From Cytophagaceae bacterium ABcell3 (GTDB lineage Bacteria; Bacteroidota; Bacteroidia; Cytophagales; Cytophagaceae): a stretch of 64,000 nt of DNA. Each line of letters opens with the position of its first letter. Positions within the stretch are counted from its first letter, which is position 1. Both the position numbers and the translations under genes were made by a program. Below the pieces are notes generated by a model. It did not search any database. It was not told the DNA's origin and saw nothing but the letters and a program-made list of their open reading frames with translations. Shown piece by piece: positions 32,635 to 58,946 of this stretch. The stretch lies in assembly GCA_030913385.1 (NCBI GenBank), contig CP133159.1, forward strand, positions 2,316,584-2,380,583, written 5' to 3'.

Positions 32635-33030
32635 TTAATCCATGCCTGGAAAACTATCAACTACTTGGACCTTGATGTCTGGAAATTGATCTACCACTTG
32701 AACCTTGAAGTCTGGGAAGTTATCAACTTTCTGCCATTGGCCACATTTGTTTGGGAAATTATCAACAAACTGTACTTTAATATCTGGAAAGCTTTTTACA
32801 TACTGTATTTTGATGTCGGGGAAACTCTTTACAAATGTCACCTTTCCATAAAGCTTGATGTCTTTATAGGAACAATTACCTTTAAGCATATCCGTAATAA
32901 CTTCTTTTTTTTCGACATCATTCAATTCTGAAAGTGTTTTGCCTAAAGTTTTTTTATCAATAGCAGTTGATCCGCTTATAAACCCTATGCAAACTAAGCA
33001 TAATAGAAATTTTAAAATAAAATGTTTCAT
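32635..33030 (-). CDS. secreted repeat protein, probable 7(1) septoil knot fold
   Basis: A 131-residue protein with a signal peptide (about 1-20). After a short helical region (25-52) it becomes a chain of six 10-14-residue units of the form (V/I)Q(F/Y/V)V(D/K)xFPDIK: VTFVKSFPDIK, IQYVKSFPDIK, VQFVDNFPNK, QKVDNFPDFK, VQVVDQFPDIK and VQVVDSFPG. This matches my memory of the Pfam family named 7(1) septoil knot, a deeply knotted beta fold predicted in bacterial secreted proteins. Function unknown. Two Cys (C53 and C96) could form a disulphide. Confidence 0.72.
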   Translation of the reverse strand: MKHFILKFLLCLVCIGFISGSTAIDKKTLGKTLSELNDVEKKEVITDMLKGNCSYKDIKLYGKVTFVKSFPDIKIQYVKSFPDIKVQFVDNFPNKCGQWQKVDNFPDFKVQVVDQFPDIKVQVVDSFPGMD

Positions 33031-39915: not shown

Positions 39916-40233
39916 TTTACTTTGTTAAATGCCAAATATAAGTAAAACATTTTTTACTAGCCTATATTGCATGAACCCTTGTGCTAGTCTTTCCCATAGT
40001 TTACTTTCCTGTTGAGTATTAGTTTATGGTTTTTTGGGCTTAAGTGGGGTCTGAATATCTTGTTTTATAAGAAAGAAAGTTAAAAAGCTGACTTCTACTA
40101 TAGTTGATTCAGTAAGAATAGTTATATTTAAACTCCGATTTCTATGGTTGGAGTTTTCTGGTTAAAAGGACGGCACGGATTGAGTTAGTTTGCTTAACGC
40201 TTCATCTGTTGCTATATTAAAATAATCTTGTAT
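39916..40233. other. divergent intergenic region, 318 bp
   Basis: Presumed promoters for both neighbours. TAATCTTG at about 40223-40230 deviates by one base from the -7 consensus but touches the ATG region, so it is not convincing. No repeats or hairpins were noticed. Confidence 0.45.
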
Positions 40234-42981
40234 ATGAAAAGCTATAAAGTTTTTGTCATAGTCTTTTTTTGCTTGTGTTCTTTAGCAAGCTATGGTCAGA
40301 ATATTAAAAGTATTAAAAAGAAGGCTGATAAAAATTTTGAAGCAGGCAACTACTACAGGGCCTTGCATTTCTATGAAACCTTAGATGCCGAAAAGCCCGG
40401 CGATGCCAAAACTTTGGCTAGGATAGGTATTTGCTACCTAAAGACGCGACCGGCAACAAAAGCGCTTGACTATTTGAAAGCAGCCAAGGAAAAGAAATAT
40501 AAAAAAGACTATATAGATTTTTATTTGGCTAAAGCATATCATGCCCACCACGATTTTGAAACAGCTATTTCTATTATGGGGCAATGTCGTTCAATGTACA
40601 AAGACCTGCGTGAGGAGATAGAGACGGAGATGAGCCATTTCAGGAACGGTCTGGAGTTGAGTAAAAACCCTGTTAAAGTAAGCATAGAGAATCTTGGAGA
40701 GGAAATTAATTCTGAGTTTCCCGAATACCGGCCAGTTATTTTAGGTGATGAGCGAACCATGTTTCTGACAGCTCGACGTCCGGGAACAACCGGAAACCTG
40801 AAAGATGAACAAGGGCAGTATTTTGAAGACATCTATGTTTCTTATTATGAAAATGACAAATGGCAGAAACCGATCAAGTTGTCTGGTTCTGTGAACAGTT
40901 CTGGTAATGATGCTTCTCTTGCCGTTACTCCTGATGGCAAAGGCTTGTTGTTAGGTCGGCAAGACTTACGGGAATCTTCTGGAACCAATATTTACTATTC
41001 GGAATATGGCAAAGGAAAATGGCAAGACCCTAAAAAGTTGAGCATTAACACTTCCGGTGAGGAGAATAGTGCCTGTTTATCGCCAGATGGTAACACTCTT
41101 TACTTTTGTAGTGATAGAGAAGGAGGTTTTGGGGGTAGCGATATTTATGTTAGCCATAAGCAGGAAGACGGAGATTGGGGAAAGCCGAAAAATTTAGGAT
41201 CCTTGATTAATTCACCTTACAATGAGTCTTCTCCCTTTTTGCATGCAGACGGGGTGACCTTGTTTTTTAGCTCTGAAGGACATAAGTCAATAGGTGGCTA
41301 TGATATTTTTAGTACTACTTACGATCCTGAAACGGGACTATATTCAGCTCCCGAAAACTTGGGTTACCCGATAAATACTGCTGGTGATGAGAAGTTTTTC
41401 GTATGGTCGGCAGACGGTACTAGAGGATACTTTTCTTCAGTCAGGGAAGATGGTTTTGGTGACTATGATATTTACATGATCACCCGCCCAAACGTAAGCT
41501 TGTCTTTTAGTTTCTACGATGGTCGAGAGCCAGATGGTTTTAAGCCTACTTCTGGAAACCTTTTTGTATATGATGCCATTACCAATGAGTTAATTACTAA
41601 ACGAGACTCTACTTCTTTTGAAGGAGAGTGCAATATTATGCTTAAACCCGGGCGGAACTATGCTATTTCTATAGAGGCTGATGGCTTTTTGTCTCACTCC
41701 GAAAATGTAAATGTACCAGTTAACGATTTTTATGTAGTAGATAAATCTGTTTTTTTAACTCCTTTGGAAAAAGGGGGACTTATTGTTCTCAATAACGTAC
41801 TTTTTGAAAAAGGTAGCTGTAAATTGAACCAGCAAAGCACGCATGAGCTAGACCGGTATTTTGAACTGATCAATGACAACCCCTCACTGGTTATCGAAGT
41901 TGCTGGGCACTGTTTTGAGATGGAATCGAGTAAGGAAAATATGGAAGTTTCCCAAAAAAGGGCTAAAGCGGTTGTTAACTACTTGGTGAGCAAAGGTCTT
42001 AATTATGAGAATCTTAAACCAGTTGGTTATGGTGATCGGTTTGCCAGTTCTGACGAAGATCTAAGCCGAACCGAGTTAATTATAAAAGAAAACTTGAAAG
42101 AGAATCCTGATTATAAACAAGCTGGATTGGGGGCTTATGATGGGATACTTAAGGGTAAAAAACAACGGACTGGGGTTGTCAATAATGAAAGTAAGCCTGG
42201 ACAAGAGCAGCATGCATCTAAGAAACAGAAAATGGTCAGCTATCTTATGAAAAAGCAGCCTGGGTTTTATGTTTTCTTTGATAGCGCGGCTTATAAAAAA
42301 GAGGTCTCTTTGCGTGATGCCATAAAAGACAGTGTAGAAGCCGGTAAGCTGGAGCCTGTTATTGTCAAAGGTAGTGTTCAGGACAGGGAGAAAGGTGTTC
42401 CCCTGGCTGCTACGGTGCAAATGAGTGATCACTTTGGGGTGGACTTGGAAGAGATGACTTGTGGAAACGATGGTACTTTCTCTTTTAAGGCTTTTAACAA
42501 AAAGGATGTTAAATACTCTGTTACGGCACGAATAAATGGTTATAACTATTTAACGCGCAGTGTTAAAGTTCCTGCGAATCGTCCAGAAGTTCAGGAAATA
42601 GAAGTAGAACTGGTTTTGACTGAACTAGCAAAAGGGCAGGTTTTTCAATTGAGAAACATTTACTTTGATTTAGATACTTATAAGTTAAGTCCTGAGTCTT
42701 ACCGGGAGCTAAAGAAACTTGAGAAATTGCTCGTAGAAAACCCTGAGCTGAAGATTGAAATTTCAGGCCATACAGACAATGTTGGAGATAAAGACTACAA
42801 CAAAACTTTGTCGAGGAGACGTGCTCAGTCGGTAGCAGATTATTTAATTAACAAAGGAATAGATATAAAACGTTTACGTGTAGAAGGATACGGAGAGGAA
42901 AGGCCTATTGCCTCGAATGATGATGAAATAGATGGACGTGAGATAAACCGTAGAATTGAATTTAAGGTAATTGAAAACTGA
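40234..42981 (+). CDS. PorE-like TPR/PD40/OmpA outer-membrane-associated protein, first paralogue
   Basis: A 915-residue protein with the domain order of Porphyromonas PorE, a T9SS envelope component: signal peptide (1-22), TPR-like helices (about 25-130), a PD40 propeller (about 145-420, with SPDGNTLYFCSDREGGFGGSD), a carboxypeptidase-regulatory-like beta domain, an OmpA-like domain (about 515-625), a second regulatory-like domain (about 705-800) and a C-terminal OmpA-C domain (RNIYFDLDTYKL, HTDNVGDKDYN, NRRIEFKV). The internal OmpA-like domain keeps the fold pattern but has HCFEM in place of HTD and TELII in place of NRR, so it probably no longer binds peptidoglycan. ATG at 40234 preferred to a TTG six bases upstream. 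Confidence 0.88.
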   Translation: MKSYKVFVIVFFCLCSLASYGQNIKSIKKKADKNFEAGNYYRALHFYETLDAEKPGDAKTLARIGICYLKTRPATKALDYLKAAKEKKYKKDYIDFYLAKAYHAHHDFETAISIMGQCRSMYKDLREEIETEMSHFRNGLELSKNPVKVSIENLGEEINSEFPEYRPVILGDERTMFLTARRPGTTGNLKDEQGQYFEDIYVSYYENDKWQKPIKLSGSVNSSGNDASLAVTPDGKGLLLGRQDLRESSGTNIYYSEYGKGKWQDPKKLSINTSGEENSACLSPDGNTLYFCSDREGGFGGSDIYVSHKQEDGDWGKPKNLGSLINSPYNESSPFLHADGVTLFFSSEGHKSIGGYDIFSTTYDPETGLYSAPENLGYPINTAGDEKFFVWSADGTRGYFSSVREDGFGDYDIYMITRPNVSLSFSFYDGREPDGFKPTSGNLFVYDAITNELITKRDSTSFEGECNIMLKPGRNYAISIEADGFLSHSENVNVPVNDFYVVDKSVFLTPLEKGGLIVLNNVLFEKGSCKLNQQSTHELDRYFELINDNPSLVIEVAGHCFEMESSKENMEVSQKRAKAVVNYLVSKGLNYENLKPVGYGDRFASSDEDLSRTELIIKENLKENPDYKQAGLGAYDGILKGKKQRTGVVNNESKPGQEQHASKKQKMVSYLMKKQPGFYVFFDSAAYKKEVSLRDAIKDSVEAGKLEPVIVKGSVQDREKGVPLAATVQMSDHFGVDLEEMTCGNDGTFSFKAFNKKDVKYSVTARINGYNYLTRSVKVPANRPEVQEIEVELVLTELAKGQVFQLRNIYFDLDTYKLSPESYRELKKLEKLLVENPELKIEISGHTDNVGDKDYNKTLSRRRAQSVADYLINKGIDIKRLRVEGYGEERPIASNDDEIDGREINRRIEFKVIEN

Positions 42982-43086: not shown

Positions 43087-45774
43087 ATGAATGGGAAGTA
43101 TCTAATAAGTTTTTTCTTAATGCTTTGTTGCTTTAATGCTTCTGCTCAGAGCGATTATAAAGCAATAAAACGAGAGGCCGCAGAACTGTTTGAACAAGAA
43201 GACTACAAGGATGCACTGGTTTTATATTTGGAGTTGAATGATAATGAGCCAGGAAACCCTGAATATTTGGCTAAAATTGGCATCTCTTATACTCAGACTC
43301 CCGAAAAACTGAAAGGGAAGGATTATCTTGAAGAGGCTTGGGATTTAGGCTATAGGGATGACGGTATTGAGTTTTACCTTGGAAGAGCCTACCATCTTCA
43401 TCATGAGTTTGAAAAAGCCATTGATTATTATGAACTCAGCCTCTCTGAATCTAAGGATTTAAAAGATAAGGCAAAGCGGGAAATAGAAAGGTGCAAGACA
43501 GGTATTGCGCTTAGCGGAAATCCTGTTGAAGCAACTATTGAAAACATTGGGCCTACCATTAATACTTCTTATCCAGAATATGCTCCTGTTATTTCAGCCG
43601 ATGAAAAGGTGCTAATTTTTACATCCAGAAGACCAAATTCTACAGGGGGCTTATTGGATGAGAAAGGTGATTTTTATGAAGATATTTACATTTCTTACAA
43701 AGAAGACGGAGAGTGGACTACCCCTATCAATTTGCCCGGTGAGGTAAATACAGAAACGCATGATGCCAGCATTGCTTTTTCTGCAGATGGTCAGGAGTTG
43801 TTGATTTATAAGAACGATACTGTCCATCATGAAGGAGGAAATATTTACTTTAGTAGTAAAAAAGGCAAAGAGTGGAAGCAGCCTGAAAAACTGCCAGATC
43901 ATATTAATTCAGAAGGGTGGGAGCCCAGCGCAAGTATTTCAGCTGGTGAGGAGTATCTGTTTTTTTCTAGCGATCGAGACGGGGGATATGGTGGCACGGA
44001 TATATATGTGTGCAAAAAGCAGGATAATGGAGAATGGGGCGAAGCTGTTAATGCAGGGCCAGAAATCAATACCCCTTATGATGAAGACGCACCTTTTATA
44101 CACGCTGATGGAAAGACGCTTTATTTCAGCTCAAAAGGTCATGATGGTATAGGAGGTTTTGATATATTTACCGCCACTTTTGATAAGGATAGCTTTAAGT
44201 TTTCGGAACCTGAAAATATTGGATATCCTATTAACACCGCTGATGATGAACTCTTCTTCGTTTGGTCTCCTGATGGAACAAAAGGGTATTTTTCTGCTAT
44301 AAGGGAAGATGGCCATGGCGATCATGACCTTTATACAGTAACCAGAGAAAATGTTAATGTGGACTTAATCCTTTTTAATGGTAAAATAACAGACGAGGAA
44401 GATAGCCTTGTGCCGTCTTCTATAAAAATTATTGATAATGAGACTAATGAGGTTGTTGCTGAGTATGACTCTTCTAAAGTCAAAGGTGACTATACTGTGA
44501 TGCTAGAGCCTGGGAAGAACTATGGTGTTTATATCGAGTCTGAAGGTTTTCTTTCTCATTCCGAAAATATTGATTTGCCTTTGCATGGGTTTTACAATGT
44601 TCGGAAAGACATTGGCTTGACCCCGCTGGACTCTGGTGGAAATATCGTTCTAAATAATATATTTTTCGAAAGCAAGAGTGCAGAATTAAAAGAAGAATCT
44701 TTCCCTGAGCTTGATAGATATTGGGAGCAGATGGAGGAAAATCCGCATTTGGATTTCGAGATTTCTGGGCATGCCTACGACTTTGAGTCTAAACGGAAAA
44801 ACAAGAAACTTTCCGAGAAGCGGGCCAATGCTGTAGCTGACTATCTCGTAGAAAAAGGTATAGAGAAGAAACGTCTTAAGCCTATCGGGTATGGCGATAA
44901 ATTCCCTTTGGTTGAGGATGCTGATGAACTTAACAATCGTAATGAATTAATAATAATTGGCAATGACCGTAAAGATACTGCCAAAAGTATTCCTGACAGA
45001 CTTGGTTATTATGATTACCTGATTTCCAAAGGAGACTCTTCTTTTATTGACCAAAGGAAAGAAGAATTTCTCAAGAAAAAAGTGGAAACCGGAGAGGAAA
45101 AGCGCGAACGCGAAAGACGGCAGGTGGAAGCAAAAAAGGAGGCGTTGAAAAAACCTGTTGTGGTCGAAGGTATTGTATATGATCAAAATACAGGTATTAG
45201 GTTAGAAGCTAAAGTGATTCTCTATGATGAAGATGGAGAGACTATTGAGGAAATGGTAACAGAAAATGACGGGGCGTACAGGTTTGAAATCAATCCTGAG
45301 AAGGAAGGTGCATATAGTGTTTCAGCCCAGAAAAAAGACTATGGGTATATTGCAGAGGAACTAGAAGTGCCGGCTATTTCTGATAAACTCCAAAAAGTGT
45401 CTATGGACCTTTATTTAGGAAAAATAGAAAAAGGGGACATTGCTAGGATAAGCAATATTTACTTCGACTTCAACCAGCATGAGTTGAGCAAAGAATCATA
45501 TAAGGAATTAGATAAACTTGCCGAGTTCCTCAAGGAAAACCCTCAGGTGAAAATAGAAGTAGCAGGGCATACGGACGATGTAGGGGCTGCATCTTATAAT
45601 AAGGTTTTGAGCCAGAGACGATGTGAGTCTGTGGTAAATTACTTGATATCTAAAGGTATAGAAAAAGAACGCTTAGTAGCCAAAGGATATGGCGAGGAGG
45701 AGCCTATTGCGCCCAGAACAGAAGAGGGAAGGGCAAAAAATCGGCGTATAGAGTTTATAATTTTGGAAAATTAG
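43087..45774 (+). CDS. PorE-like TPR/PD40/OmpA outer-membrane-associated protein, second paralogue
   Basis: An 895-residue paralogue of the preceding gene with the same domain order and a similar length; signal peptide ends ASAQ. The propeller repeats (FFSSDRDGGYGGTDIYV), the internal degenerate OmpA-like domain (HAYDF for HTD; NRNELIII for NRRIE) and the terminal OmpA-C domain (ISNIYFDFNQHEL, HTDDVGAASYN, NRRIEFII) all align. A Lys/Glu-rich linker near residue 650-700 is longer here. The spacing (105 bp) with no terminator suggests cotranscription. Tandem paralogues of this type may work with different cargoes or partners; true T9SS membership is not shown. Confidence 0.88.
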   Translation: MNGKYLISFFLMLCCFNASAQSDYKAIKREAAELFEQEDYKDALVLYLELNDNEPGNPEYLAKIGISYTQTPEKLKGKDYLEEAWDLGYRDDGIEFYLGRAYHLHHEFEKAIDYYELSLSESKDLKDKAKREIERCKTGIALSGNPVEATIENIGPTINTSYPEYAPVISADEKVLIFTSRRPNSTGGLLDEKGDFYEDIYISYKEDGEWTTPINLPGEVNTETHDASIAFSADGQELLIYKNDTVHHEGGNIYFSSKKGKEWKQPEKLPDHINSEGWEPSASISAGEEYLFFSSDRDGGYGGTDIYVCKKQDNGEWGEAVNAGPEINTPYDEDAPFIHADGKTLYFSSKGHDGIGGFDIFTATFDKDSFKFSEPENIGYPINTADDELFFVWSPDGTKGYFSAIREDGHGDHDLYTVTRENVNVDLILFNGKITDEEDSLVPSSIKIIDNETNEVVAEYDSSKVKGDYTVMLEPGKNYGVYIESEGFLSHSENIDLPLHGFYNVRKDIGLTPLDSGGNIVLNNIFFESKSAELKEESFPELDRYWEQMEENPHLDFEISGHAYDFESKRKNKKLSEKRANAVADYLVEKGIEKKRLKPIGYGDKFPLVEDADELNNRNELIIIGNDRKDTAKSIPDRLGYYDYLISKGDSSFIDQRKEEFLKKKVETGEEKRERERRQVEAKKEALKKPVVVEGIVYDQNTGIRLEAKVILYDEDGETIEEMVTENDGAYRFEINPEKEGAYSVSAQKKDYGYIAEELEVPAISDKLQKVSMDLYLGKIEKGDIARISNIYFDFNQHELSKESYKELDKLAEFLKENPQVKIEVAGHTDDVGAASYNKVLSQRRCESVVNYLISKGIEKERLVAKGYGEEEPIAPRTEEGRAKNRRIEFIILEN

Positions 45775-47624: not shown

Positions 47625-48413
47625 CTACTTTTTTACCTTCATCTCTGCTTCTTTCTTCCAATCCATGCCAATGGCTGATAGATATTCAGACTCATTCCAA
47701 TGGTCTCGTGAAACAGGTTTACAGATAAGCGTTTCATCTAAGGGGGCGCTTACTACTTCCATTCCGCAACTTCTGATGATCGCTTCCATTGCAGAAGGAT
47801 TTGGAGCCCACCAATTTGTAGGGTCACCGGCATATTTTTTCTCAATAAATGCCATCTTTGGCCACTCATCTTTTAGAAAGACTTCTCTCTTTTCTAGCGA
47901 CACATCATCTGGTACATGTTCTTGCTTTTCGCCAGGCATAGATAGGGTTTGGAAAACTAACATTTCCTTTACCTTTCTAGAAAGAATGTCCATAGCCAAT
48001 AATGGGTACCGAAGGTGGTAAAACACACCCATAAACCAAATTAGGTCAAAATCTTCGTTAAGGTTTACCAGGTCATAAACTTGCATTTGCTTAAACCTGA
48101 TTTTGTTGGGTAGCCTAAACTGCTCTGCGACCCATTCTGCTTGTCGTAAATAGTGTGGGTCGAGATCTATTCCAAGTACATCAGCGCCGCGTTTTGCCAA
48201 CTCTATGGAATAGAATCCTGCATTGCAGCCTATGTCCAACACTTTCCACCCATTGAGATCGGCAGGAATATGGTCTTTTAAGGCCTGCCATTTGAAAGAT
48301 GGGAAATCTCCGAGAAAATGATCAGGAGCCGTTTGTACTCCACTAGGCAAATGGATGTTGTGGAACCATGGCTGCATTGATTGTATCTGGTCGGTGATAT
48401 CCTTTTCTTTCAT
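47625..48413 (-). CDS. SAM methyltransferase, TIGR04290-like
   Basis: A 262-residue methyltransferase. A SAM-binding glycine motif (LDIGCNAGFYSIELAKRGA with LGIDLD) is followed by the distinctive C-terminal region LVFQTLSMPGEKQ, WPKMAFIEKKYAGDPTNWWA and PSAMEAIIRSCGMEV, which I recognise as the signature of NCBI family TIGR04290, usually found beside glycosyltransferases and sugar-modifying genes. It may methylate a sugar or lipid-linked sugar. It is the last gene of the operon, 74 bp after the preceding stop. Confidence 0.83.
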   Translation of the reverse strand: MKEKDITDQIQSMQPWFHNIHLPSGVQTAPDHFLGDFPSFKWQALKDHIPADLNGWKVLDIGCNAGFYSIELAKRGADVLGIDLDPHYLRQAEWVAEQFRLPNKIRFKQMQVYDLVNLNEDFDLIWFMGVFYHLRYPLLAMDILSRKVKEMLVFQTLSMPGEKQEHVPDDVSLEKREVFLKDEWPKMAFIEKKYAGDPTNWWAPNPSAMEAIIRSCGMEVVSAPLDETLICKPVSRDHWNESEYLSAIGMDWKKEAEMKVKK

Positions 48414-48487: not shown

Positions 48488-49564
48488 TTACACATTAATG
48501 CCTATATCGGTCAGCTCTCTCACGTATTCTTCAAGTTCTGCTGCTCTGTGTGCAGCGGTATGGTTTTCCATTACTACTTTTCGTGCATTCTCACCGATAC
48601 TCCTTCGCTGACTGTCTGGTATTTCCTGAAGGAAAGAAGTGGTATCGCTAGTTTTTCTGGCTATCAAAATAGATTCTTCTTCTTTAAACAAAGTTGTTAA
48701 ACCATCCCAATCGTCGCTGATAACGGGTGTTCCACAAGCTGCAGCCTCAAAGAGTCTAACGCTAGGAGAGTACCCTGCACGTATCATATCTGCTCTAGTA
48801 ATGTTCATTGTAAATCGTTGGCTATTATAAAAACAGCTGTGGTCAGCCGGGGGGAGGTGGTGGATATGCTCTGTGTTTTTTGGCCAGCGTAGGTTGTCTG
48901 GATATTGGGCTCCTGCTACAACAAATCTTTGTTCAGGCAGTACTGTGGCTGCTTTTAACATCAGGTTATTTAAAGGTGGCTGCCTGTCTGTGCTATAGGT
49001 TCCCAGGTAACCTAGGTCCCATTTCTTTTCACAAGATACTGGATGGTATAGGTTTGGGTCAAAAGAGCAGTAAAGAGCTTTGGCTTTAGGCGAATTATAT
49101 TTTTTTTCTAGCAGGTCTAATGTTGGGCCTCCTGTAAAAGAAAGGTAGAGGTCGTAAGCTGGAATGAGTTCTGGCTTTAGGTACTCATAATCTTTTCTTT
49201 CAAGTTTTGCTAAAGTTACCGGGGTATCAATATCGTAGAAAGCAGCAATCCCTCGGGTAGTGTTTTGTACCCACTCACCAACTTTAACTCCTTGCGGGAC
49301 ATAGGAACCGACTATAACAAGATCGGCATTTTTGATTGTCGTGTGCCACCGGTCTTTTAGTTCTTCCAAACTTTTATAAAGGTGCAAGTCGCAAAAGTCT
49401 GGGTTGGGCAGGTCCCTGCTTGAGGCATACCAAGGGACATCTCTTTCTAAAAAAGTAACATGGTGGTTCTTTTTAGTAAGTTCTTTTATTAGCCCTCTGA
49501 AAGTAGTGGCATGTCCGTTGCCCCACGAAGAGGTGAGCGATAAACCTAATATGACGATTTTCAT
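48488..49564 (-). CDS. CgeB-like glycosyltransferase, third copy
   Basis: A 358-residue GT-B-type enzyme. Its start MKIVILGLSLTSSWGNGHATTFRGL is close to the openings of the two genes before it. The C-terminal group-1 donor-binding region reads RADMIRAGYSPSVRLFEAAACGTPVISDDWDGL, with the acidic residue of the EX7E-like motif replaced by the FEAA run usual in CgeB-like proteins. The donor is presumably a nucleotide sugar. The three consecutive copies differ from each other, so they probably add different sugars or make different linkages. 3 bp from the next gene. Confidence 0.83.
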   Translation of the reverse strand: MKIVILGLSLTSSWGNGHATTFRGLIKELTKKNHHVTFLERDVPWYASSRDLPNPDFCDLHLYKSLEELKDRWHTTIKNADLVIVGSYVPQGVKVGEWVQNTTRGIAAFYDIDTPVTLAKLERKDYEYLKPELIPAYDLYLSFTGGPTLDLLEKKYNSPKAKALYCSFDPNLYHPVSCEKKWDLGYLGTYSTDRQPPLNNLMLKAATVLPEQRFVVAGAQYPDNLRWPKNTEHIHHLPPADHSCFYNSQRFTMNITRADMIRAGYSPSVRLFEAAACGTPVISDDWDGLTTLFKEEESILIARKTSDTTSFLQEIPDSQRRSIGENARKVVMENHTAAHRAAELEEYVRELTDIGINV

Positions 49565-49567
49565 TTG

Positions 49568-50662
49568 TTAGACTTCTACGTTTTGGTCAATGTTTTCTTG
49601 TAATACCGGGTGCAATTCTTCTGCTCTTTTTGGATAGGTATGGGCAGAAATGACTTTCTTTCTGGCTGCTTCGCCAATTTTGGCAGCTGTATTTGGCGAA
49701 AGGTCTTTAAGTAGAGCAGCTACTTCTTCGCCATTATTGGCCACGAGTATTTCTTTGCCTGGTTCAAAGAAGAACTCTATACCTTCCCATTGATCACTGA
49801 TTATGCATGCACCGGCTCCGGCTGCTTCAAAAACCCGGGTAGCGGGGGAAAAGCCATACCTGGCCATACTGTCTCTGCTAATGTTCAAGACTGCTTTGGA
49901 TGTACTGTTGAATGCATTGTGGTCTTTGGTATATACATGCCCAATGTTTTTAATATTGGATGGCATAGGTTTGTCGTGCCATCCGCTTCCGCCTATGATG
50001 AATTCTTTATGTGGGCACAGACAGGCTGCTTTGATAAAAAACTCTTCTACACGGCTTTCCCGGTCTGGTAAGCGGTTTCCTAAGAAAGCCAGATCTGCTT
50101 GGAATCTTTCATCTGACTTTACTGGAAAGTGCGTGTTTGTGTCTAAAGCATTATATACCGCTATGCATTTTTTTGCCCCGTGCGAAGTATATGCTTTAAT
50201 TACAGGCTCTCCTCCGCCATAGGTCAACACCATGTCATATTGAGGAATGTGTTCATGAAATGGATCTTTAGGATCTTTTTCGATTCTGTCTAAAGTGGCA
50301 GGAGCATCTACATCCCAAAAGATAATTTTGTTTTTACTGGTCTTCAGCTTAAGAACTTCTGCTTCCAAAAGTTCGTCAAATACACCCACTCCACTGGCTT
50401 TTATTACAATATCTGCCGAAGAAGCTTTTTGCAGCATGTCAAATACAGCTTTTTCGGTGGCTTTGTAAACCACTACTTTTGAATATTCAGGGTCTGGTAT
50501 GTCCCTGTGCTCTTGGCGTTGGTAAGCGTCTGGCTCAAAAAAAGTAATGTCGTAGCCTAGATTGTGCAGCGCCCTAAGTATGCCCCTATAATAAGTAGCG
50601 GCACCATTCCAATATGCTGAAATAAGGCTAGAGCCAAAAAATGCAATGCTTTTATTGTTCAT
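49568..50662 (-). CDS. CgeB-like glycosyltransferase, second copy
   Basis: A 364-residue paralogue (SLISAYWNGAATYYRGILRAL near the N-terminus, RYGFSPATRVFEAAGAGACIISDQWEG in the C-terminal domain). Cytoplasmic, no membrane segment. Substrates unknown; it belongs to the same operon, 3 bp from the neighbour downstream and 7 bp from the one upstream. The high similarity of layout to its neighbour points to duplication followed by divergence. Confidence 0.82.
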   Translation of the reverse strand: MNNKSIAFFGSSLISAYWNGAATYYRGILRALHNLGYDITFFEPDAYQRQEHRDIPDPEYSKVVVYKATEKAVFDMLQKASSADIVIKASGVGVFDELLEAEVLKLKTSKNKIIFWDVDAPATLDRIEKDPKDPFHEHIPQYDMVLTYGGGEPVIKAYTSHGAKKCIAVYNALDTNTHFPVKSDERFQADLAFLGNRLPDRESRVEEFFIKAACLCPHKEFIIGGSGWHDKPMPSNIKNIGHVYTKDHNAFNSTSKAVLNISRDSMARYGFSPATRVFEAAGAGACIISDQWEGIEFFFEPGKEILVANNGEEVAALLKDLSPNTAAKIGEAARKKVISAHTYPKRAEELHPVLQENIDQNVEV

Positions 50663-50669
50663 TGAGCAA

Positions 50670-51779
50670 TTATTTATTTAATGTTTCAAACACGTTTAAT
50701 CCGATTTCTTCACAAATTGCTTCTAGCTCATCCACTCTATGCTTACAGGTATGTGCTTTTTGAATGGTTTCAAGGCCATTTTGTGCAATATTGTTTCGGG
50801 CTTCCTTATTCTGAATGAGATGTTGAAGTTGGTTTTTCATTTCCGCTCCATCTTTCACCATTAGGTAATCTTGGTTGGTTCTGAATAGGTGTTCTGTGTC
50901 TTCCCAAGGGGAGGAGATAAGCGGTATGCCACAAGCTAAAGCCTCAAAAGGCCTGATGGTAGGAATGCCTGGCAAGGTTTCTACATAAGGCCTTCTTGGT
51001 ACATGTACGGTTACTTTATATTTAGAAAACGCTTCTGGCGCTTTATAGTTGGGAAGCCATCCGCCATATTCAATTCCGGCATTTTCTAATGCCTCAATGG
51101 CTTTTTTAGGATAGCGTACGCCGTATATTTTTGCTTTTAATTTTAGTGACTTGACAGGGTTTATCAAAAACTCATGAAGTTCTTCTGTTCTTTCTTCATC
51201 GCCCCAGTTTCCTACCCATACTAGATCGCCTTCAAAGTTTTTCTCTAAAGGGCGGAATATGTTTGTGTCTGCTGCTTCGTGCCATGTCCATGATTTATTT
51301 ACTTTATGCTCTTGTTCATAAATCTTTCTGATAACCTCTCCGTAAGCCAACACGCCATCATATTGGCTTAAATCATAAGCGGCCATTGCTTCTTTATCAG
51401 AGATTATCCGGTGGTGAGTATCATGAAAAAGGAGTTTATAACCTAATCGGCTTTTTTCCTTCCCTAACCGTGAAACCACTTTTTGTTCGTTCCACTCATG
51501 TACAATGACCAGGTCTGCATCTTTTAGGGCTTGTTCATAATTGAAATTATCATGGTTGTAGAAATTGGTTTCTAGTTGAGGGTAATACTTATAGAATTCC
51601 TCAACGGCCTTGTTCCCATAGTCTTTTTTTAGGTTGCTAAGACTCCATCCATTTTCAGGCTCAAAAACTTGTACATTATGACCTCGGTTAATCAACTCGG
51701 TAGCTATACCTCTTAAAAAATGGGCATTGCCATGGTTCCAGTCTGATAGTAATGAATGGTAAAAAAGTAATATCTTCAT
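50670..51779 (-). CDS. CgeB-like glycosyltransferase, first copy
   Basis: A 369-residue group-1 glycosyltransferase with the openings FYHSLLSDWNHGNAHFLRG and a donor-binding region VPRRPYVETLPGIPTIRPFEALACGIPLISSPWEDTEHLF. Its start overlaps the stop of the GT4 gene by 4 bp (translational coupling). Chemistry unknown; retaining mechanism would be expected of the family. Confidence 0.83.
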   Translation of the reverse strand: MKILLFYHSLLSDWNHGNAHFLRGIATELINRGHNVQVFEPENGWSLSNLKKDYGNKAVEEFYKYYPQLETNFYNHDNFNYEQALKDADLVIVHEWNEQKVVSRLGKEKSRLGYKLLFHDTHHRIISDKEAMAAYDLSQYDGVLAYGEVIRKIYEQEHKVNKSWTWHEAADTNIFRPLEKNFEGDLVWVGNWGDEERTEELHEFLINPVKSLKLKAKIYGVRYPKKAIEALENAGIEYGGWLPNYKAPEAFSKYKVTVHVPRRPYVETLPGIPTIRPFEALACGIPLISSPWEDTEHLFRTNQDYLMVKDGAEMKNQLQHLIQNKEARNNIAQNGLETIQKAHTCKHRVDELEAICEEIGLNVFETLNK

Positions 51780-52915
51780 AATTCAGTAACTTTTTCTGTT
51801 TTTGCAATCCTGCTTTTAGCAGGTTTTCTAGGAAACAATAGCTTTTGGTATTCTCTAAAGTAGTTTTCAGCCATCTGTCGGGAGTCATATCTTCTGCTAT
51901 GCATTTCAGCCCGATTGGCTAAACTGGTTCTTAAACTGTCGTTTTCAATAAGCATGATAAGACATTCTTTTAAGCCTTGTTGGTCATCGTTATTGATAAA
52001 AACAGCATTGTTTTCCCATATTTCAGCCAGAGAATCGATTTGTCCAGCTACAAGGGCACATCCGGACATGCCTGCTTCTAGCATAGCCAGTCCAAAAGGT
52101 TCATAGCGAGATGGCATTACAAAAATGGAAGCTTCCGATAACCACTTGGTAATCTCTTTTTTGCTTAATTTTCCTAGAAAAACAACATTTCTGAGGTTTG
52201 TCAATTCGCCATTTGAGGGGTCTTGGTTGTCTCCGGCAATATATACAGGCCAAGGAAGTTCGGCTGCTATTTCTGCTAATAGGTTTAAGTTTTTAGCTTC
52301 GTCCCAAACCCTGCCCATTGCAAAAATGATAGGTTTCTTGCTTTTCTTTCTGAATGTGCCGATGTCGGAACCATTGTATATGACTTTAGAGTTTTTAAAA
52401 GGGCCATAGTACTCTTTGGCACAATGCATCATATTTTGAGAAGGAGCTATTACCAGATCAGCAGCTTGTAAGCCTTCAGATACTTTTTGCTGGTATGTGG
52501 ACCATTCAGTAGGAGCGTCTTCATTTTTTACAGCCTGCCACCATGATAGTACACATGAATGGGCTGCAACTAAAACTGGTTTGCCCCAAGGAAGCGAACC
52601 ATGTACATAATTATTCAGATGAATAAGATCTGGTTTGATGGATTTGTTTAGCTCGAGGAGCCAAGCGCCCGCTTTCTCTACATCTTCCCATGGGTTCTCC
52701 ATCCATTCCAATTTATAGCTGCTTTCATGGACAGTGATATTTTTTGTATATCTGACATCATATTGTTGTTCGGGAGAAAGTGGCGCTCCCATTGTTGCCA
52801 AATGTACATGTATATTGTATGGTGCCAGAACCTTTGCCAGCTCAGTCGCATATGTCCAGACTCCACCAATGGTGTCGGCTGTCATTAATATTTTTATTTT
52901 GTTATTATCTGCCAT
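51776..52915 (-). CDS. GT4-family glycosyltransferase
   Basis: A 379-residue GT-B glycosyltransferase. The N-terminal domain begins KILMTADTIGGVWTYATELAKVL; the C-terminal domain has FAMGRVWDEAKNLNLLAEIAAEL and the EX7E motif in FVMPSRYEPFGLAMLEAGMSGCALV, where both Glu are present. Members transfer hexoses or other sugars with retention. The length and motif order are typical. It overlaps both neighbours (4 bp and 11 bp), so it is in the core of the operon. Confidence 0.88.
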   Translation of the reverse strand: MADNNKIKILMTADTIGGVWTYATELAKVLAPYNIHVHLATMGAPLSPEQQYDVRYTKNITVHESSYKLEWMENPWEDVEKAGAWLLELNKSIKPDLIHLNNYVHGSLPWGKPVLVAAHSCVLSWWQAVKNEDAPTEWSTYQQKVSEGLQAADLVIAPSQNMMHCAKEYYGPFKNSKVIYNGSDIGTFRKKSKKPIIFAMGRVWDEAKNLNLLAEIAAELPWPVYIAGDNQDPSNGELTNLRNVVFLGKLSKKEITKWLSEASIFVMPSRYEPFGLAMLEAGMSGCALVAGQIDSLAEIWENNAVFINNDDQQGLKECLIMLIENDSLRTSLANRAEMHSRRYDSRQMAENYFREYQKLLFPRKPAKSRIAKTEKVTEL

Positions 52916-53936
52916 ATATCATGTCCAGGATTTCTGAAACTTTTACATACTGCCATGCGTCTTTGTCAAATTCTGCACCAGCGGCTAATTCCTCGGCCCA
53001 AACCGCAGCGGCACGCCCCATCCAATCGTCTGGTGGTTCTACCATTACTTCTGTTTTGGTGCCATAGTAAGCTTCTGCTACAAAGTCATAGAAAGAGCCG
53101 TTGATGTTTCTAAAGCATGCGCCTCCTTTGGTACCATAAAAAACGGCTTTAATTTCAGCCTCTTTTCCTGCTTGCAAATTCCATGAACAGCGTAAATCAA
53201 TAGCGGCATCATTGGCTAGGTCAATTCTGGCAATGCCATAATCTTCCACTACTTTTGCGTCTTTTGGTAATGGTTTGCCTTGGTGGAAAAGTTTGGAGCT
53301 GACGTTTTTCACTTCCGGAAAGTCCAGGCACCACATAGCCAGATCGGTCAGGTGGACGCCCAAGTCAATGACGCAACCGCCACCTGATTGCTCTGGATCA
53401 TAAAACCATGGTTTATCAGGGCCATAGGCATTGTGAAATACCAGTTCTACCGCATATATTTCTCCAAGGTTGCCTGACTTAATGAGGTTATACACTGCTC
53501 GCATAGCCTTGGTGTGGCGGTAGGAGAGGTCTACTCCCAATGAAAGGTTATATTTTTCGGCTGTTCTGACTACTTCGGCAGTTTCTTGAGCAGTCCTTCC
53601 GAGGGGCTTTTGGCAAAAAACAGATTTACCGGCATTTAATGCCTGAATCGATTGGTTGGCGTGTAATGCACTTGGTGTAGCAATAACAACACCGTCAACT
53701 TCTTCATTTTTTAATATGGCATCAAAAGAGGAAGCTTGTTTAGCCTGAGGAGCTGCTTTTAAGGCTTCTTTGGTGGTTTCTTCTGAGACATCTGCCACCA
53801 TAGATATGGTAGCTTTTTCGGTTTTTTGGACAGCCTCCATTCTGTTTCGCCCGATCCAACCTACTCCTAAAAATCCCAGTGATGGTTTAAAAGTTCTTTC
53901 AGATTTTTCTGATTGCTTAAAAATTAACTCTTCCAT
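52905..53936 (-). CDS. Gfo/Idh/MocA-family oxidoreductase
   Basis: A 343-residue NAD(P)-dependent dehydrogenase. The Rossmann motif is GVGWIGRN and the catalytic Lys lies in CQKPLGR, where the usual CEKP is CQKP (Glu to Gln, Lys kept). The second domain holds GGGCVIDLGVHLTDLAMW, with the His expected in the active site. Family members oxidise or reduce C3 of nucleotide or free sugars, or isomerise inositols. It is probably a sugar-modifying step of this operon. A 11-bp overlap joins it to the GT4 gene. Confidence 0.87.
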   Translation of the reverse strand: MEELIFKQSEKSERTFKPSLGFLGVGWIGRNRMEAVQKTEKATISMVADVSEETTKEALKAAPQAKQASSFDAILKNEEVDGVVIATPSALHANQSIQALNAGKSVFCQKPLGRTAQETAEVVRTAEKYNLSLGVDLSYRHTKAMRAVYNLIKSGNLGEIYAVELVFHNAYGPDKPWFYDPEQSGGGCVIDLGVHLTDLAMWCLDFPEVKNVSSKLFHQGKPLPKDAKVVEDYGIARIDLANDAAIDLRCSWNLQAGKEAEIKAVFYGTKGGACFRNINGSFYDFVAEAYYGTKTEVMVEPPDDWMGRAAAVWAEELAAGAEFDKDAWQYVKVSEILDMIYGR

Positions 53937-54035: not shown

Positions 54036-55040
54036 TTATATTTTTATAAGCGCCTTTACAAAACCTTCTGGACGTGAAGCCATGGTTCTAAAAGCATCAT
54101 TAATTTCATCTAAACTATAAGTATGGGTATAAAGTGAGGCCGGCGAAAGCTCTGAATCAGTCACAGCCTTCAATGCGTTTCTAATCCCTTTCATATACAT
54201 TTTAGGATCTCTTTCGTGGGCATTGATAACATCTAATCCACGCCAGTTCCAAAGTTGGATGTTTACAGAGCGCATTCCGTCCTGATGAAAGCCTGCTATG
54301 ATTAAGCGGCCCCTTTCCATGGTTAACTCACCAGCCAAGTTTAATGGCCACTCCTTTCCGGTGGCTTCTATTACCCGGTCACAGAATTTACCGTCTGTTA
54401 GGTGTTTTACTTTTTCAATGATTTTCCAATGGTCGTCAAGCGGTATAAGCTCGTCGGCGCCGTTTTTATCGGCCACTTCTAAAGAAAATGGTCGCTGGGA
54501 TAGGGCAATGACGTTAGCGCCTGCATTTTTACAAAGCTGGGTTAGCAGTGCCCCTAAAAAGCCTATGCCAATGATGGCAACAGTTTGCCCTTTGCGGATA
54601 TCGCTTCGTTCAAAGATGTTCATGGCACAGCCTAACGGCTCTCCCGGAAATGGCTGCCCATAAAGCGATGGTGGCAGTTTTACCAATGCATCGGCATCTG
54701 CTATGTCGTATTGGGCAAAAGAATGGTAAGACAAAAAAGACACCCTTTCGCCAGGAGCGTATCCTTTTACATCTTTTCCTACCTCATCTACTGTGCCCCA
54801 GCCTTCATGGCCAGGATTGCCTGCCGGAATAGGGTACTGAAACCATTCACGACCTTCCCATAAAGGGATGCCTGAAGCACAAACACCACACCCTTCTACT
54901 TTTACCCTTACCTGATTGGCTTTTGGTTCAGGAATATTGACTTTCTGGATTTCAAATTTCCCAGGTTCTGTCAATACCGCAGCGTCCATTAGCTGAACAT
55001 CGGTTTTTTGATTTTCTAATGTTTCACTGGAACGTATCAA
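54036..55040 (-). CDS. zinc-type medium-chain dehydrogenase (MDR)
   Basis: A 334-residue MDR oxidoreductase with catalytic-zinc ligands in GCGVCASGI (Cys) and PGHEGWG (His, Glu). The loop with four Cys that binds the structural zinc in classic alcohol dehydrogenases is missing, a common variation. The cofactor motif GIGFLGALLTQLC begins the Rossmann fold. Family members oxidise polyols or sugars; the exact substrate here is open. It overlaps the GH-SDR fusion gene by 17 bp and is separated by 99 bp from the Gfo/Idh/MocA gene. Confidence 0.87.
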   Translation of the reverse strand: MIRSSETLENQKTDVQLMDAAVLTEPGKFEIQKVNIPEPKANQVRVKVEGCGVCASGIPLWEGREWFQYPIPAGNPGHEGWGTVDEVGKDVKGYAPGERVSFLSYHSFAQYDIADADALVKLPPSLYGQPFPGEPLGCAMNIFERSDIRKGQTVAIIGIGFLGALLTQLCKNAGANVIALSQRPFSLEVADKNGADELIPLDDHWKIIEKVKHLTDGKFCDRVIEATGKEWPLNLAGELTMERGRLIIAGFHQDGMRSVNIQLWNWRGLDVINAHERDPKMYMKGIRNALKAVTDSELSPASLYTHTYSLDEINDAFRTMASRPEGFVKALIKI

Positions 55041-57069
55041 TAGTAGCCTCCTTTTTTATGTTTTTAAATGAACTTAGTTCAATTCCTTTTTGCTTGCACA
55101 CCCATACAAGGAGGTTGTGCAAACCTTTGTTGATGCTGTTTTCAGGCCGCCAGCCTGTTGCTTCCGAAAATTTTCTTATGTCTGAAACATAGTAAAGCTG
55201 ATCTCCTGTTCTGGCTGGAGCAAACTCCACCTTTGGTGTTTCTCCTGTAAGTTTGCCTATTGAGTGTATTAGCTCGACAAGACTTGTGGTGTTTTCTATT
55301 CCTCCACCTATATTGTAGGCTTGTCCTGAGAGCTTCTCTATGTTTCTACTGGCCAATTCAAAAGCTTTTATCAGGTCTTGGACAAAAAGTACGTCACGTA
55401 CTTGTTTGCCATTGCCATAGATCGATATTGTTTCTTTCTCTAGTGCCTTGATTAAAAAGTGGGCTACCCAGCCTTGGTCTTCGTTTCCGTATTGATGAGG
55501 GCCGTATACGCAGCTCATTCTGAATACAGTGGCTGGTATTCCATATGTTCTGGCATAGTCTAAAACATACTGATCTGCCGCTCCTTTGGAACAGCCATAG
55601 GGGCTGTGGAAGTCCAGTGGTCTGTTTTCTGCAATTCCGGTATTGCACAAGTCAGTACTCTGAGGCATATACCTGTGATCTTTTTCAACAAATTGGATAT
55701 CCTTTAAAGAACCATATACTTTGTTGGTTGATGTAAAAATCAGTGGTATAGGAGCAGCTGTCGTCCTGATAGCTTCCAATATGTTCAATGTTCCCCGGGC
55801 ATTAATTTCAAAATCATTTACCGGGTTGTATAAAGAAGTTGTTACAGCCACTTGAGCCGCAAAATGGTATATCTCACTGGCATGGTTTACCAGCTTTTTG
55901 ACCACATGTTGGTTTCTGATATCACCGGTTTCAATTTCTATGTTTACGCCATATTGATCATACAGCCACTTAAGGTTTTTCTCTACTCCTGGTCTCGACA
56001 CATTGTCTAAAATCATGACTTTTTGGCCATTTTCCACCAAGCTCTTTGCTAAATTGGTACCTATAAATCCAGCACCGCCACAGATTAATGCATATTTTTC
56101 TTTGTCATTTTGTGATGCTTTTTTTAGGTATGGCATTTTCTCCTTTAGCCCAATTCCCTTTTGCTCAATCATCCTGTAAAGGAGTTTCGGAGTGCCATCA
56201 CATTTCTTTAGCCCAAAGTGATACTCCCGCTCGTCCAAATGCATGCCACCGACTGTAGGGTGTTTCGGGTCTAGGTCATACGCAGCATACCAGTAAAGCC
56301 TGTCCGCCGGAGCTTTTTGGGCTTTTTTAAACTCTTCTAGTTGCTTTAATTCGTCATGTTGCCAAGTGGAGAAACCTGCTTCTGTAATCCATATTTCTGC
56401 TTTGTGGCCATGATGGTTTAACGTTTCCCTGATAGCGTTAATATTCTTTTCCCAACCATCCCAGTGTTGGTCAAATACTTCGGGAAAACCATGAATGCCT
56501 ACAGCGTCTATATGTTCCATCGCCCCTTGCGAGAACATGTTATGCAGCCAATTGGGGTCAATGGGACTCATGCCGCCTAGTAAGGTTTTTCTACCTCTTT
56601 GCTTCATCCAATAGGCGGCCATATTGATCATTTGAGAAAACCTTTTCCAATTCAGGTCAAGGGTGTAGTCGTATTCTACCTTATTGTTCGGTTCGTTCCA
56701 AAGTTCCACCCATTCAAAATGTTGGTCATATCGGGTAATAATTATGTCCAGAAAGTCTGCATATGACTTAGGTTCTTTGGGCGGCGCTGAAACTTTGGGA
56801 GCCAAACCTATAGATGGTGGTGTGTAAAGGAAGCACGGAAGTACCTCCAGATTCTTCGATAAAAAAGGGATTAGCCAGTCATACCATTCTTTACCACCTT
56901 CTGTATACCAATCAGCCCATGAAAAACCTGTTCTCAGGTGTTCTATGCCAAGCCTTTTGCAGTCCTCTACCAGTTTTTCCACACGCTCATGTTCGCCTGG
57001 CCTCAACCATTCCAACAGGCCTGTTATATGAACATTGCTATTGTTATATATTTTGTTGTCTGAAAACAT
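55024..57069 (-). CDS. fusion of a glycoside-hydrolase-like domain and an SDR nucleotide-sugar epimerase
   Basis: A 681-residue protein with two domains. Residues about 10-305 form a TIM-barrel glycoside hydrolase of clan-A type: VELWNEPN carries the acid/base (E126) and IWITEAGFS the nucleophile (E230), so both catalytic Glu are present. Residues about 325-665 form an extended SDR enzyme: GGAGFIGTNL (331-340) binds NAD, and SPYGCSK holds the Tyr-Lys pair; the nearest look is CDP-tyvelose/UDP-glucose 4-epimerase. No signal peptide, so the hydrolase domain would work in the cytoplasm, which is unusual for such enzymes. A sequencing frameshift is excluded as cause, since a single continuous frame with a short linker spans both. 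Confidence 0.88.
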   Translation of the reverse strand: MFSDNKIYNNSNVHITGLLEWLRPGEHERVEKLVEDCKRLGIEHLRTGFSWADWYTEGGKEWYDWLIPFLSKNLEVLPCFLYTPPSIGLAPKVSAPPKEPKSYADFLDIIITRYDQHFEWVELWNEPNNKVEYDYTLDLNWKRFSQMINMAAYWMKQRGRKTLLGGMSPIDPNWLHNMFSQGAMEHIDAVGIHGFPEVFDQHWDGWEKNINAIRETLNHHGHKAEIWITEAGFSTWQHDELKQLEEFKKAQKAPADRLYWYAAYDLDPKHPTVGGMHLDEREYHFGLKKCDGTPKLLYRMIEQKGIGLKEKMPYLKKASQNDKEKYALICGGAGFIGTNLAKSLVENGQKVMILDNVSRPGVEKNLKWLYDQYGVNIEIETGDIRNQHVVKKLVNHASEIYHFAAQVAVTTSLYNPVNDFEINARGTLNILEAIRTTAAPIPLIFTSTNKVYGSLKDIQFVEKDHRYMPQSTDLCNTGIAENRPLDFHSPYGCSKGAADQYVLDYARTYGIPATVFRMSCVYGPHQYGNEDQGWVAHFLIKALEKETISIYGNGKQVRDVLFVQDLIKAFELASRNIEKLSGQAYNIGGGIENTTSLVELIHSIGKLTGETPKVEFAPARTGDQLYYVSDIRKFSEATGWRPENSINKGLHNLLVWVCKQKGIELSSFKNIKKEATIDTFQ

Positions 57070-57106: not shown

Positions 57107-58225
57107 TTACACGGTCAGTCCTCTGGTCTCTAGCTCTTTGCTTGCCTTGCTGACATGGTCAGAGGCGCTTTGGTCTTGCAGCCATTCGGCAAGCTCTGTG
57201 AGCCCTTCTTCAAAACTGATCTCTGGGACAAACCCTAAAATCTCACGTGATTTGGTCATGTCGGAAAAGCAGTGCCTGATATCACCTACCCGATATTTTC
57301 CGGTCACCTTTGGTAAAATATGGTGGTTCCCTGTTACACCAGCCAAGCAGGTAGCTATTTCATTGATGGTATATTTGTTTCCACTACCTACATTAAAGAC
57401 TTCTCCGGTGGCTTTTTCTTTTTCTAGCGCTAACCTGCAAGCTTTGGCTACATCTTTTACATTGATAAAGTCTCTTTGTTGAAGGCCATCTTCAAAAACC
57501 ATTGGTTGGTTGTTGTTCAAAAGTTGTGAGGCAAAGATGGCCAATACGCCCGTGTATGGGTTTGAAAGCGCTTGCCTTGTGCCATAAACATTAAAAAATC
57601 GCATGGCTACCGTAGGGATATTATATGCTTGCCCAATCATCAAGCACATTTTTTCTTGGTCATATTTGGTCAATGCGTAAATAGAGGAAAGGCTCGGGTG
57701 TTTGTCCTCTGTTGTGGGCACAGGAATGAGCTCATGCCCATTTTGGTTGTATAGCTCCCAATTACTTTTTTTGAGGTCTTCCAACTTTCTTTCGCAGTGC
57801 ATGATCTTGTTGCCTTGCTTGTCTAGGTAAAGCCCTTCCCCGTAAATACTCATACTCGAAGCGACAACCAATTTTCGAACCGGCTTTTCTACCAATGCTT
57901 CAAGCAAGACGGAGGTGCCTGTGTTGTTGACGTCCACATAATCATTTACCTTATACATACTTTGCCCTACACCTACCAAAGCGGCAAAGTGATAGACTGC
58001 GTCTATTCCTTTAAGTGATTCTTTTACTATATCTTTGTCCCTTACATCTCCGACGATTAACTCTGCTTCTGGGTGCAGATAGTCTGGTCGTTTACAATTT
58101 TTCCCATGTACCTGTTCAGAAAGGTTATCAAGAACTCTTACCTTATACCCACATCTGATTAATTCATCTGTTAGATGGGAGCCGATAAATCCAGCCCCAC
58201 CTGTAATCAGAACTCTTTTTGCCAT
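57107..58225 (-). CDS. extended SDR nucleotide-sugar epimerase/dehydratase
   Basis: A 372-residue SDR enzyme of the type often called dTDP-L-rhamnose 4-epimerase. It has GGAGFIGSHL for NAD binding, an SSMSIYGEG segment, the catalytic pair in IYALTKYDQ (Tyr, Lys) and FFNVYGTRQALSNPYTG, a family hallmark. There is an insertion with Cys (IMHCERKLEDL) in the position seen in these epimerases. It likely produces a nucleotide sugar for the operon's glycosyltransferases. 37 bp precede the fusion gene. Confidence 0.87.
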   Translation of the reverse strand: MAKRVLITGGAGFIGSHLTDELIRCGYKVRVLDNLSEQVHGKNCKRPDYLHPEAELIVGDVRDKDIVKESLKGIDAVYHFAALVGVGQSMYKVNDYVDVNNTGTSVLLEALVEKPVRKLVVASSMSIYGEGLYLDKQGNKIMHCERKLEDLKKSNWELYNQNGHELIPVPTTEDKHPSLSSIYALTKYDQEKMCLMIGQAYNIPTVAMRFFNVYGTRQALSNPYTGVLAIFASQLLNNNQPMVFEDGLQQRDFINVKDVAKACRLALEKEKATGEVFNVGSGNKYTINEIATCLAGVTGNHHILPKVTGKYRVGDIRHCFSDMTKSREILGFVPEISFEEGLTELAEWLQDQSASDHVSKASKELETRGLTV

Positions 58226-58256: not shown

Positions 58257-58946
58257 TTAAAAAGTTTGCAGCGTTGGGCGTAATGTTATATGGTTTACCG
58301 AAACTCCATGTGGCCGGCTAATTGCATAATAAACCGTGTTGGCCACTTCTTCTGGCGATATTGCCCCCCAGCCATTTTCATCAACCTCCCGACTGCCTGA
58401 AATTGTATTTTTAAAAAAGTTGGTCTCTGTTACGCCAGGGGCGACTGTTGTCACCCTTATACCTGGTTCTTCTACCCGTAATGTTTCAGCAATAGTCTCC
58501 AGCGCACATTTCGTAGCAGAGTAAATACCGCCGTAAGGGTATGTTTTGCCCGCCGATACAGACGAAATAAATACCACATCGCATTTCATGTTTTCAGGTA
58601 CTGATGGTACAAAAGCCCTGATCAGTCTGAGCGATCCCATTAAATTTGTATTGATTACTGTTGCCCATTTTTCAGGGTCTCCTTCGGTTAATTTTTCATG
58701 GATGCCTATGCCTGCGTTACAGACAATTATATCCGGTAGGCCAAAGGAGGTGTGAAGTTCACTGAAAAGCCTATCTACTTCACTCCCGGAGGCTATATTG
58801 CAAAGTGAAGAATATAATCCGGTGGGCAAGGGTTGTGGAAAGTTAATGTCTGCTATCGCAGTCTTAACTCCTTCACTGTTAAATTTGCTGGCTATTGCAT
58901 ATCCAATACCGGATGCGCCTCCGCTGACTAAAGCTCTTCTGTACAT
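58257..58946 (-). CDS. classical SDR oxidoreductase
   Basis: A 229-residue short-chain dehydrogenase: GGASGIGYAI near the N-terminus binds the dinucleotide, NAG follows, the Ser lies in FISSVSAG and the pair in YSATK. The start MYRRALVSGG is clean. It is the first gene of the ten-gene operon, 31 bp before the epimerase gene. Substrate unknown; a ketoreduction during sugar synthesis is possible, an unrelated role is too. Confidence 0.87.
   Translation of the reverse strand: MYRRALVSGGASGIGYAIASKFNSEGVKTAIADINFPQPLPTGLYSSLCNIASGSEVDRLFSELHTSFGLPDIIVCNAGIGIHEKLTEGDPEKWATVINTNLMGSLRLIRAFVPSVPENMKCDVVFISSVSAGKTYPYGGIYSATKCALETIAETLRVEEPGIRVTTVAPGVTETNFFKNTISGSREVDENGWGAISPEEVANTVYYAISRPHGVSVNHITLRPTLQTF

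Follow-up and report, generated by a model that had tools for sequence, protein, structure and literature searches.

A stretch of 64,000 nucleotides from Cytophagaceae bacterium ABcell3 (contig CP133159.1, positions 2,316,584 to 2,380,583; hereafter the window) carries a gene that joins a glycoside hydrolase (GH) to a nucleotide-sugar epimerase of the short-chain dehydrogenase/reductase (SDR) type. This fusion is real, conserved and rather surprising. It is an evenly balanced proposition that the protein is a bifunctional enzyme of a patchily distributed cytosolic cassette for oligosaccharide or glycoside biosynthesis, in which the epimerase supplies a donor and the glycosidase trims or remodels the product. 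A broader and somewhat more tentative reading is that the hydrolase represents an unclassified clan GH-A family with two topologies, one canonical and fused to a TyvE-type epimerase, the other permuted from strand 4 and stand-alone. The two forms would substitute for one another in one patchy cytosolic oligosaccharide cassette, probably under general-stress control in Rhizobiaceae, with the glycosidase serving a building step instead of degradation. The circular permutation is the most surprising part of the finding.

A conserved hydrolase–epimerase fusion

The first-pass annotation had described a continuous hydrolase–epimerase frame without stating its strand. The frame is confirmed as a single unbroken open reading frame of 681 codons on the minus strand (55024..57069), and the plus strand across these positions contains many stops. 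The same fusion is present at 43 other loci with 45–62% identity, as counted from a scan of genome contigs (48 loci) and five plasmid loci, giving an alignment set of 44 with the window fusion. It is therefore neither confined to this genome nor a sequencing artefact, which rules out a missed stop codon or chimaeric read. Both halves are under purifying selection, with omega values over 14 pairs of 0.021–0.131 for the GH half and 0.000–0.131 for the SDR half; several of the synonymous distances (dS) are above 1 and only approximate. AlphaFold2 modelled the full-length protein with a pLDDT of 83.7 and pTM of 0.80. The features first read from the sequence held up: inspection by eye found no evident hydrophobic leader at the N-terminus of this protein, which had been called without a signal peptide, the two catalytic Glu residues of the GH half lie where they had been placed (E126 in LWNEPNN and E230 in WITEAGF) with both held by 41 of the 44 fusions, and the NAD and Tyr-Lys motifs are intact (GGAGFIG, Y491, K495).

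In a Pfam scan of the fusion protein the SDR half alone was matched. This half (residues 325–660; 55090..56097, minus) had been called a nucleotide-sugar epimerase; an epimerase-type SDR it is, but not a generic one. Its best PDB matches are 9rl0 (E 2.9e-88), the CDP-tyvelose 2-epimerase of Thermodesulfatator atlanticus (TaTyvE; CDP, cytidine diphosphate), and 1orr (E 9.4e-82), with the next at 1.5e-36. Alignment with 9rl0 places Y491 (55597..55599, minus), the SDR catalytic Tyr, on Tyr164, T448-N449-K450 (55720..55728, minus) on the TNK segment, Q532 on Gln205 and W534 on Trp207; V407-A408-V409 corresponds to the VAM segment. The roles of these TaTyvE residues are those given in PMC13098431. 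The TNK residues, Y491, K495, Q532, W534, A408 and V409 are invariant across the 44 aligned fusions, and position 407 has V in 40 of them and T in the other four. VAM (residues 83–85 of TaTyvE) thus becomes VAV, with Met replaced by Val in every fusion; backbone contacts are attributed to this segment in the same source. The SDR half is consequently predicted to be a TyvE-type (SDR1E) C-2 epimerase with catalytic and specificity residues intact save for this Met-to-Val change. It aligns over its full length with the known TyvE enzymes and shares an identical NAD motif, Tyr-Lys pair, TNK segment and Gln-Gly-Trp loop. It differs from them in the VAV segment, in its fusion to a GH domain and in that CDP-sugar genes were not seen in its cassette.

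The GH half (residues 1–312; 56134..57069, minus) is assigned a clan GH-A TIM barrel with a PslG/GH39-like fold from AlphaFold2, Foldseek and VIA-align. The model of residues 1–318, built with 37 sequences, is a confident barrel (pLDDT 85.2, pTM 0.86) spanning residues ~14–312, so that the modelled segment is essentially all barrel; GH39 enzymes carry an accessory C-terminal beta domain. By predicted secondary structure the putative acid/base E126 (56692..56694, minus; kept in 42 of 44 fusions) follows strand 120–123, and the putative nucleophile E230 (56380..56382, minus; 41 of 44) lies within strand 225–231. The model has the (beta/alpha)8 barrel of clan GH-A with the acid/base after strand 4 and the nucleophile at strand 7. 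Three PslG entries are the nearest solved folds in Foldseek (E 4.9e-16 to 3.1e-15, TMq 0.73–0.76). In VIA-align these score Z 25.9–26.3 at a root-mean-square deviation of 2.9–3.1 over 291–294 residues, with 18–19% identity, followed by the GH39 enzyme 5jvk (Z 24.5) and many GH1 enzymes (Z about 24). VIA-align re-scored the 1000 best Foldseek chains, and no family can be excluded on the strength of its ranking. The comparison with GH39, GH5 and GH1 proposed at the outset thus returned a clan GH-A barrel with PslG, GH39, GH5 and GH1 enzymes as the top matches. With a lead over GH1 of only about two Z units, PslG comes closest, but other relatives are plausible as well.

In Pfam, two of 37 relatives of the GH half reach the generic family Glyco_hydro_cc (best 4.6e-4). 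A GH-half profile searched against PDB sequences found its best match in a GH1 enzyme (E 0.022); a GH39 xylosidase scored E 0.85. As the window GH half matches no Pfam family at E≤1, the GH39 profile PF01229 included, it was not assigned as a plain member of GH39, GH5 or GH1. PslG, from the Psl cluster of Pseudomonas aeruginosa, appears to be the best analogue. It shares the nearest solved fold and the retaining Glu pair, and its gene also sits within a glycan-building cluster. According to PMC9075953, PslG is intracellular, its gene is transcribed together with the psl genes, and the Glu pair of the enzyme is important for Psl production; PMC11912335 describes it as a retaining endo-beta-glucosidase. 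It differs from the fusion in its distant sequence, in being unfused and in its reported location at the inner membrane.

A circularly permuted stand-alone form

Related cassettes exist in which the SDR is a separate gene. In those of an Acidobacteria locus (L037) and a Bdellovibrionales locus (L039), a GH gene following a methyltransferase begins MIEA..WNEPNN, although the L037 stretch stops after 89 residues, too early to tell its block order. A lone SDR and a separate GH also occur in the plasmid cassettes of Sinorhizobium meliloti, Paracoccus yeei and Azospirillum lipoferum. Four complete stand-alone homologues were recovered (L039:15171-16049, plus strand; L062:13001-13960; L063:16001-16942; L064:16001-16927), with those on plasmids annotated as beta-xylosidase or glycosyl hydrolase. 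The fusion GH profile aligns to all four in two blocks of swapped order, profile positions 120/122–296/305 coming first (domain E-values 7.6e-37 to 2e-40), followed by 12/14/15–115/117 (1.8e-19 to 6.2e-22). This order indicates a circular permutation with a new start at barrel strand 4, and the stand-alone GH therefore appears to be a circular permutant of the GH half of the fusion. All four keep both Glu residues, and two match PF01229, below the cut-off only.

The two forms were not found together. Among the 57 sequences of a census, 44 carry the canonical GH, four others the permuted GH and none both; the remaining nine comprise seven without any GH match and two (L037 and L048) with only a fragment. 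On plasmids, 146 records hold 147 GH places, with one place each in 60 rows among the matches listed. An SDR tree of 26 of the 44 fusions, 13 stand-alone domains and one outgroup, in which long branches including that of the window were flagged, requires five changes between fused and stand-alone, at least two of them forced by well supported branches. The tree thus does not show a single origin of the fusion. As the stand-alone SDR of S. meliloti nests beside the Rhizobiaceae fusions, the fusion has split, or formed, more than once, and one GH form probably replaced the other within this Rhizobiaceae-type group.

Cassette, distribution and control

The fusion belongs to a run of ten genes, all on the minus strand with tight spacing or overlaps. 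A second nucleotide-sugar epimerase/dehydratase, EPI2 (57107..58225), is present at 43/43 fusion loci and always adjoins the fusion. Beyond it lies a short-chain dehydrogenase (58257..58946; 29/43). On the other side of the fusion are a Zn-dependent alcohol dehydrogenase (54036..55040; 42/43), a Gfo/Idh/MocA dehydrogenase (52905..53936; 39/43), a GT4-type glycosyltransferase (51776..52915) and three PF13524 glycosyltransferases (50670..51779, 49568..50662 and 48488..49564), each of the four at 42/43 loci, and a methyltransferase of the TIGR04290 family (47625..48413; 341 bits against a cut-off of 300; 29/43). Absences are partly edge effects, as L029 is a 3.5-kb contig and most flanks stop 10 kb out. 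With four glycosyltransferases and two epimerases, the hydrolase is encoded within a glycan-assembly cluster, as PslG is.

Pfam recognises no flippase, polymerase or bactoprenyl sugar transferase among the ten genes. The cassette product is therefore probably intracellular or passed to another system. The methyltransferase links the window to the TIGR04290/TIGR04295 'B12_rSAM_oligo' cassettes of NCBIfam, and the Azospirillum cassette holds TIGR04295, but NCBIfam names these parts only. A literature search found no description of the cassette, of TIGR04290 or of a circularly permuted clan GH-A, and the available portions of PMC2912261 and PMC7851689 contain no mention of the cassette or of a GH fusion.

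Fusion hosts are mostly Hymenobacteraceae, with others in a Chitinophagales metagenome-assembled genome, three Geobacteraceae, alphaproteobacteria and Xanthomonas sacchari. On the X. sacchari plasmid (L050:12957-16084) the start of the GH lies in a different frame, the gene being frame-shifted or mis-sequenced. Of the 1565 plasmid records with any match, 52 reach a query coverage of at least 80%. Within the phylum of the window, TIGR04290 exceeds its cut-off in one of 395 genomes and the GH profile matches four, nearly at full length only in the genome of the window itself. Full-length matches are absent from 58 other relatives, where the closest hit is SDR-only at 43%. GC content is 0.41–0.43 at 48–60 kb of the window compared to 0.36–0.41 elsewhere. 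This rarity and raised GC make the cassette look horizontally moved.

All four Rhizobiaceae fusion cassettes (L049, L051, L052, L053) carry a GGAAC-N17-GTT motif 46 bp ahead of the EPI2 start; such a motif occurred in 1 to 21 of 2000 order-1 resampled sequences. It points toward the EPI2 operon in five of the seven plasmid loci scanned, these four and L062, of which three are close Rhizobium relatives; L063 and L064 lack it. In L062 it is positioned at 140 bp, with a second copy before the inositol-3-phosphate synthase gene. The motif agrees with the EcfG consensus GGAAC-N17-20-GTT in PMC6599016, where the EcfG targets of Sphingomonas melonis include a run of glycosyltransferase genes. Stress control of this type would concern the Rhizobiaceae cassettes. 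An EcfG sigma factor is not expected in Bacteroidota.

Several cassettes offer hints as to the sugar. Those of Rhizobium, Agrobacterium, Xanthomonas, Sinorhizobium and Paracoccus include UDP-glucuronate decarboxylase genes (UDP, uridine diphosphate), one of them annotated instead as dTDP-glucose 4,6-dehydratase, and the ABcell3 genome has a homologue (48%) outside the cassette. UDP-xylose is thus a possible nucleotide sugar. According to PMC13098431, TaTyvE reacts faster once the C5-hydroxymethyl group is removed, and CDP-lyxose is discussed there. Together with the decarboxylases, this makes a pentose substrate worth considering. All three annotated permuted-GH cassettes contain inositol-3-phosphate synthase genes, with histidine phosphatase genes also inside these cassettes (L062:11230-12929, L063:14608-18069, L064:13499-15222). 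No such synthase was found in the ABcell3 genome by protein search or with PF07994, which detected its controls in 5/14. Myo-inositol was therefore dropped as the acceptor of the window cassette and is a lead for the permuted-type cassettes only.

Elsewhere in the window, positions 32635-33030 (minus) encode a small exported-looking protein of repeats such as VKSFPDIKVQ and VDNFPDFKVQ. Two adjacent large proteins (40228-42981 and 43087-45774, plus) are apparent paralogues with C-terminal ends that look OmpA-like by eye.

A putative building-step glycosidase

An intracellular-looking GH-A hydrolase that is joined to a sugar-nucleotide enzyme and encoded amid glycosyltransferase and sugar dehydrogenase genes very likely acts within nucleotide-sugar or glycoside metabolism. 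The intracellular sugar role proposed in the first-pass annotation stands to this extent; action on a nucleotide sugar itself is speculative. The arrangement suggests that the glycosidase has a job in building a sugar compound. In the bifunctional reading, the SDR half would reversibly invert C-2 of a nucleoside diphosphate (NDP) sugar of the gluco/manno or xylo/lyxo type via a 2-keto intermediate on bound NAD. The resulting rare NDP-sugar would feed one of the four glycosyltransferases as donor, and these would assemble a short glycan. The GH half, as a retaining beta-glycosidase, would trim, edit or remodel the product in the cytosol, as PslG does in the Psl pathway. Both reactions, the sugar and its nucleotide, the linkage cut and the service of the two steps to one product are what we infer from these data.

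Several observations weigh against this proposal. GH1 and GH5 folds score nearly as well as PslG, and the fold is the only guide to substrate class given that no Pfam family covers the window GH half. PslG acts on a secreted polymer, whereas the fusion cassette has no match to export or polymerisation genes. No CDP-glucose cytidylyltransferase exceeds the cut-off in the ABcell3 genome, and the nucleotide may thus be one other than CDP. Furthermore, three of the 44 fusions have lost one or both catalytic Glu residues while keeping an intact SDR half: L018 (9959-12007) has Ala in place of the nucleophile, L026 (9941-11995) has both replaced and L029 (382-2460) has a Gln and a gap. GH activity is therefore dispensable in some lineages. 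Compared to its three nearest relatives, L026 is 98–99% identical in the SDR half but only 72–75% in the GH half. Judged from these residues, its lineage has kept the fusion and dropped the GH chemistry, which speaks against an indispensable role.

The same losses would fit a GH half that binds substrate or acts as a scaffold without being catalytic. Retention of both Glu residues in nearly all fusions and in every complete permuted homologue makes this very improbable. Two further explanations, each unlikely but considerably less so, keep the GH half active. It may be a transglycosidase: as a building step, the glycosyl unit of a glycoside made by the cassette would be passed to an acceptor other than water. 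Clan GH-A includes transglycosidases, and the biosynthetic setting and the fusion to a donor-making enzyme are in keeping with this role. However, PMC11912335 describes PslG, which has the closest fold, as a hydrolase, and no sequence feature of the fusion separates hydrolysis from transglycosylation. Alternatively, the GH half may clear stored product or aborted intermediates, so that one cassette both makes and breaks its compound. Two cytosolic activities on a single chain would allow this, and the EcfG-type motif upstream of the EPI2 operon in the Rhizobiaceae fusion loci would suit a stress compound that is synthesised and cleared as needed. Against such turnover, fusion locks synthesis and breakdown to an equal level of expression. 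Trimming or remodelling during synthesis remains the preferred reading of the active enzyme.

PMC9075953 regards the need of polysaccharide clusters for a glycosidase as an unsolved question. A glycosidase that is covalently tied to a donor-making epimerase, supplied elsewhere as a circular permutant, or left without its Glu residues in a few lineages provides natural experiments on this question. The cassette also offers a GH-A family that lacks a Pfam model, and it opens a way to a chemically uncharacterised bacterial glycoside made by symbionts and Hymenobacteraceae.

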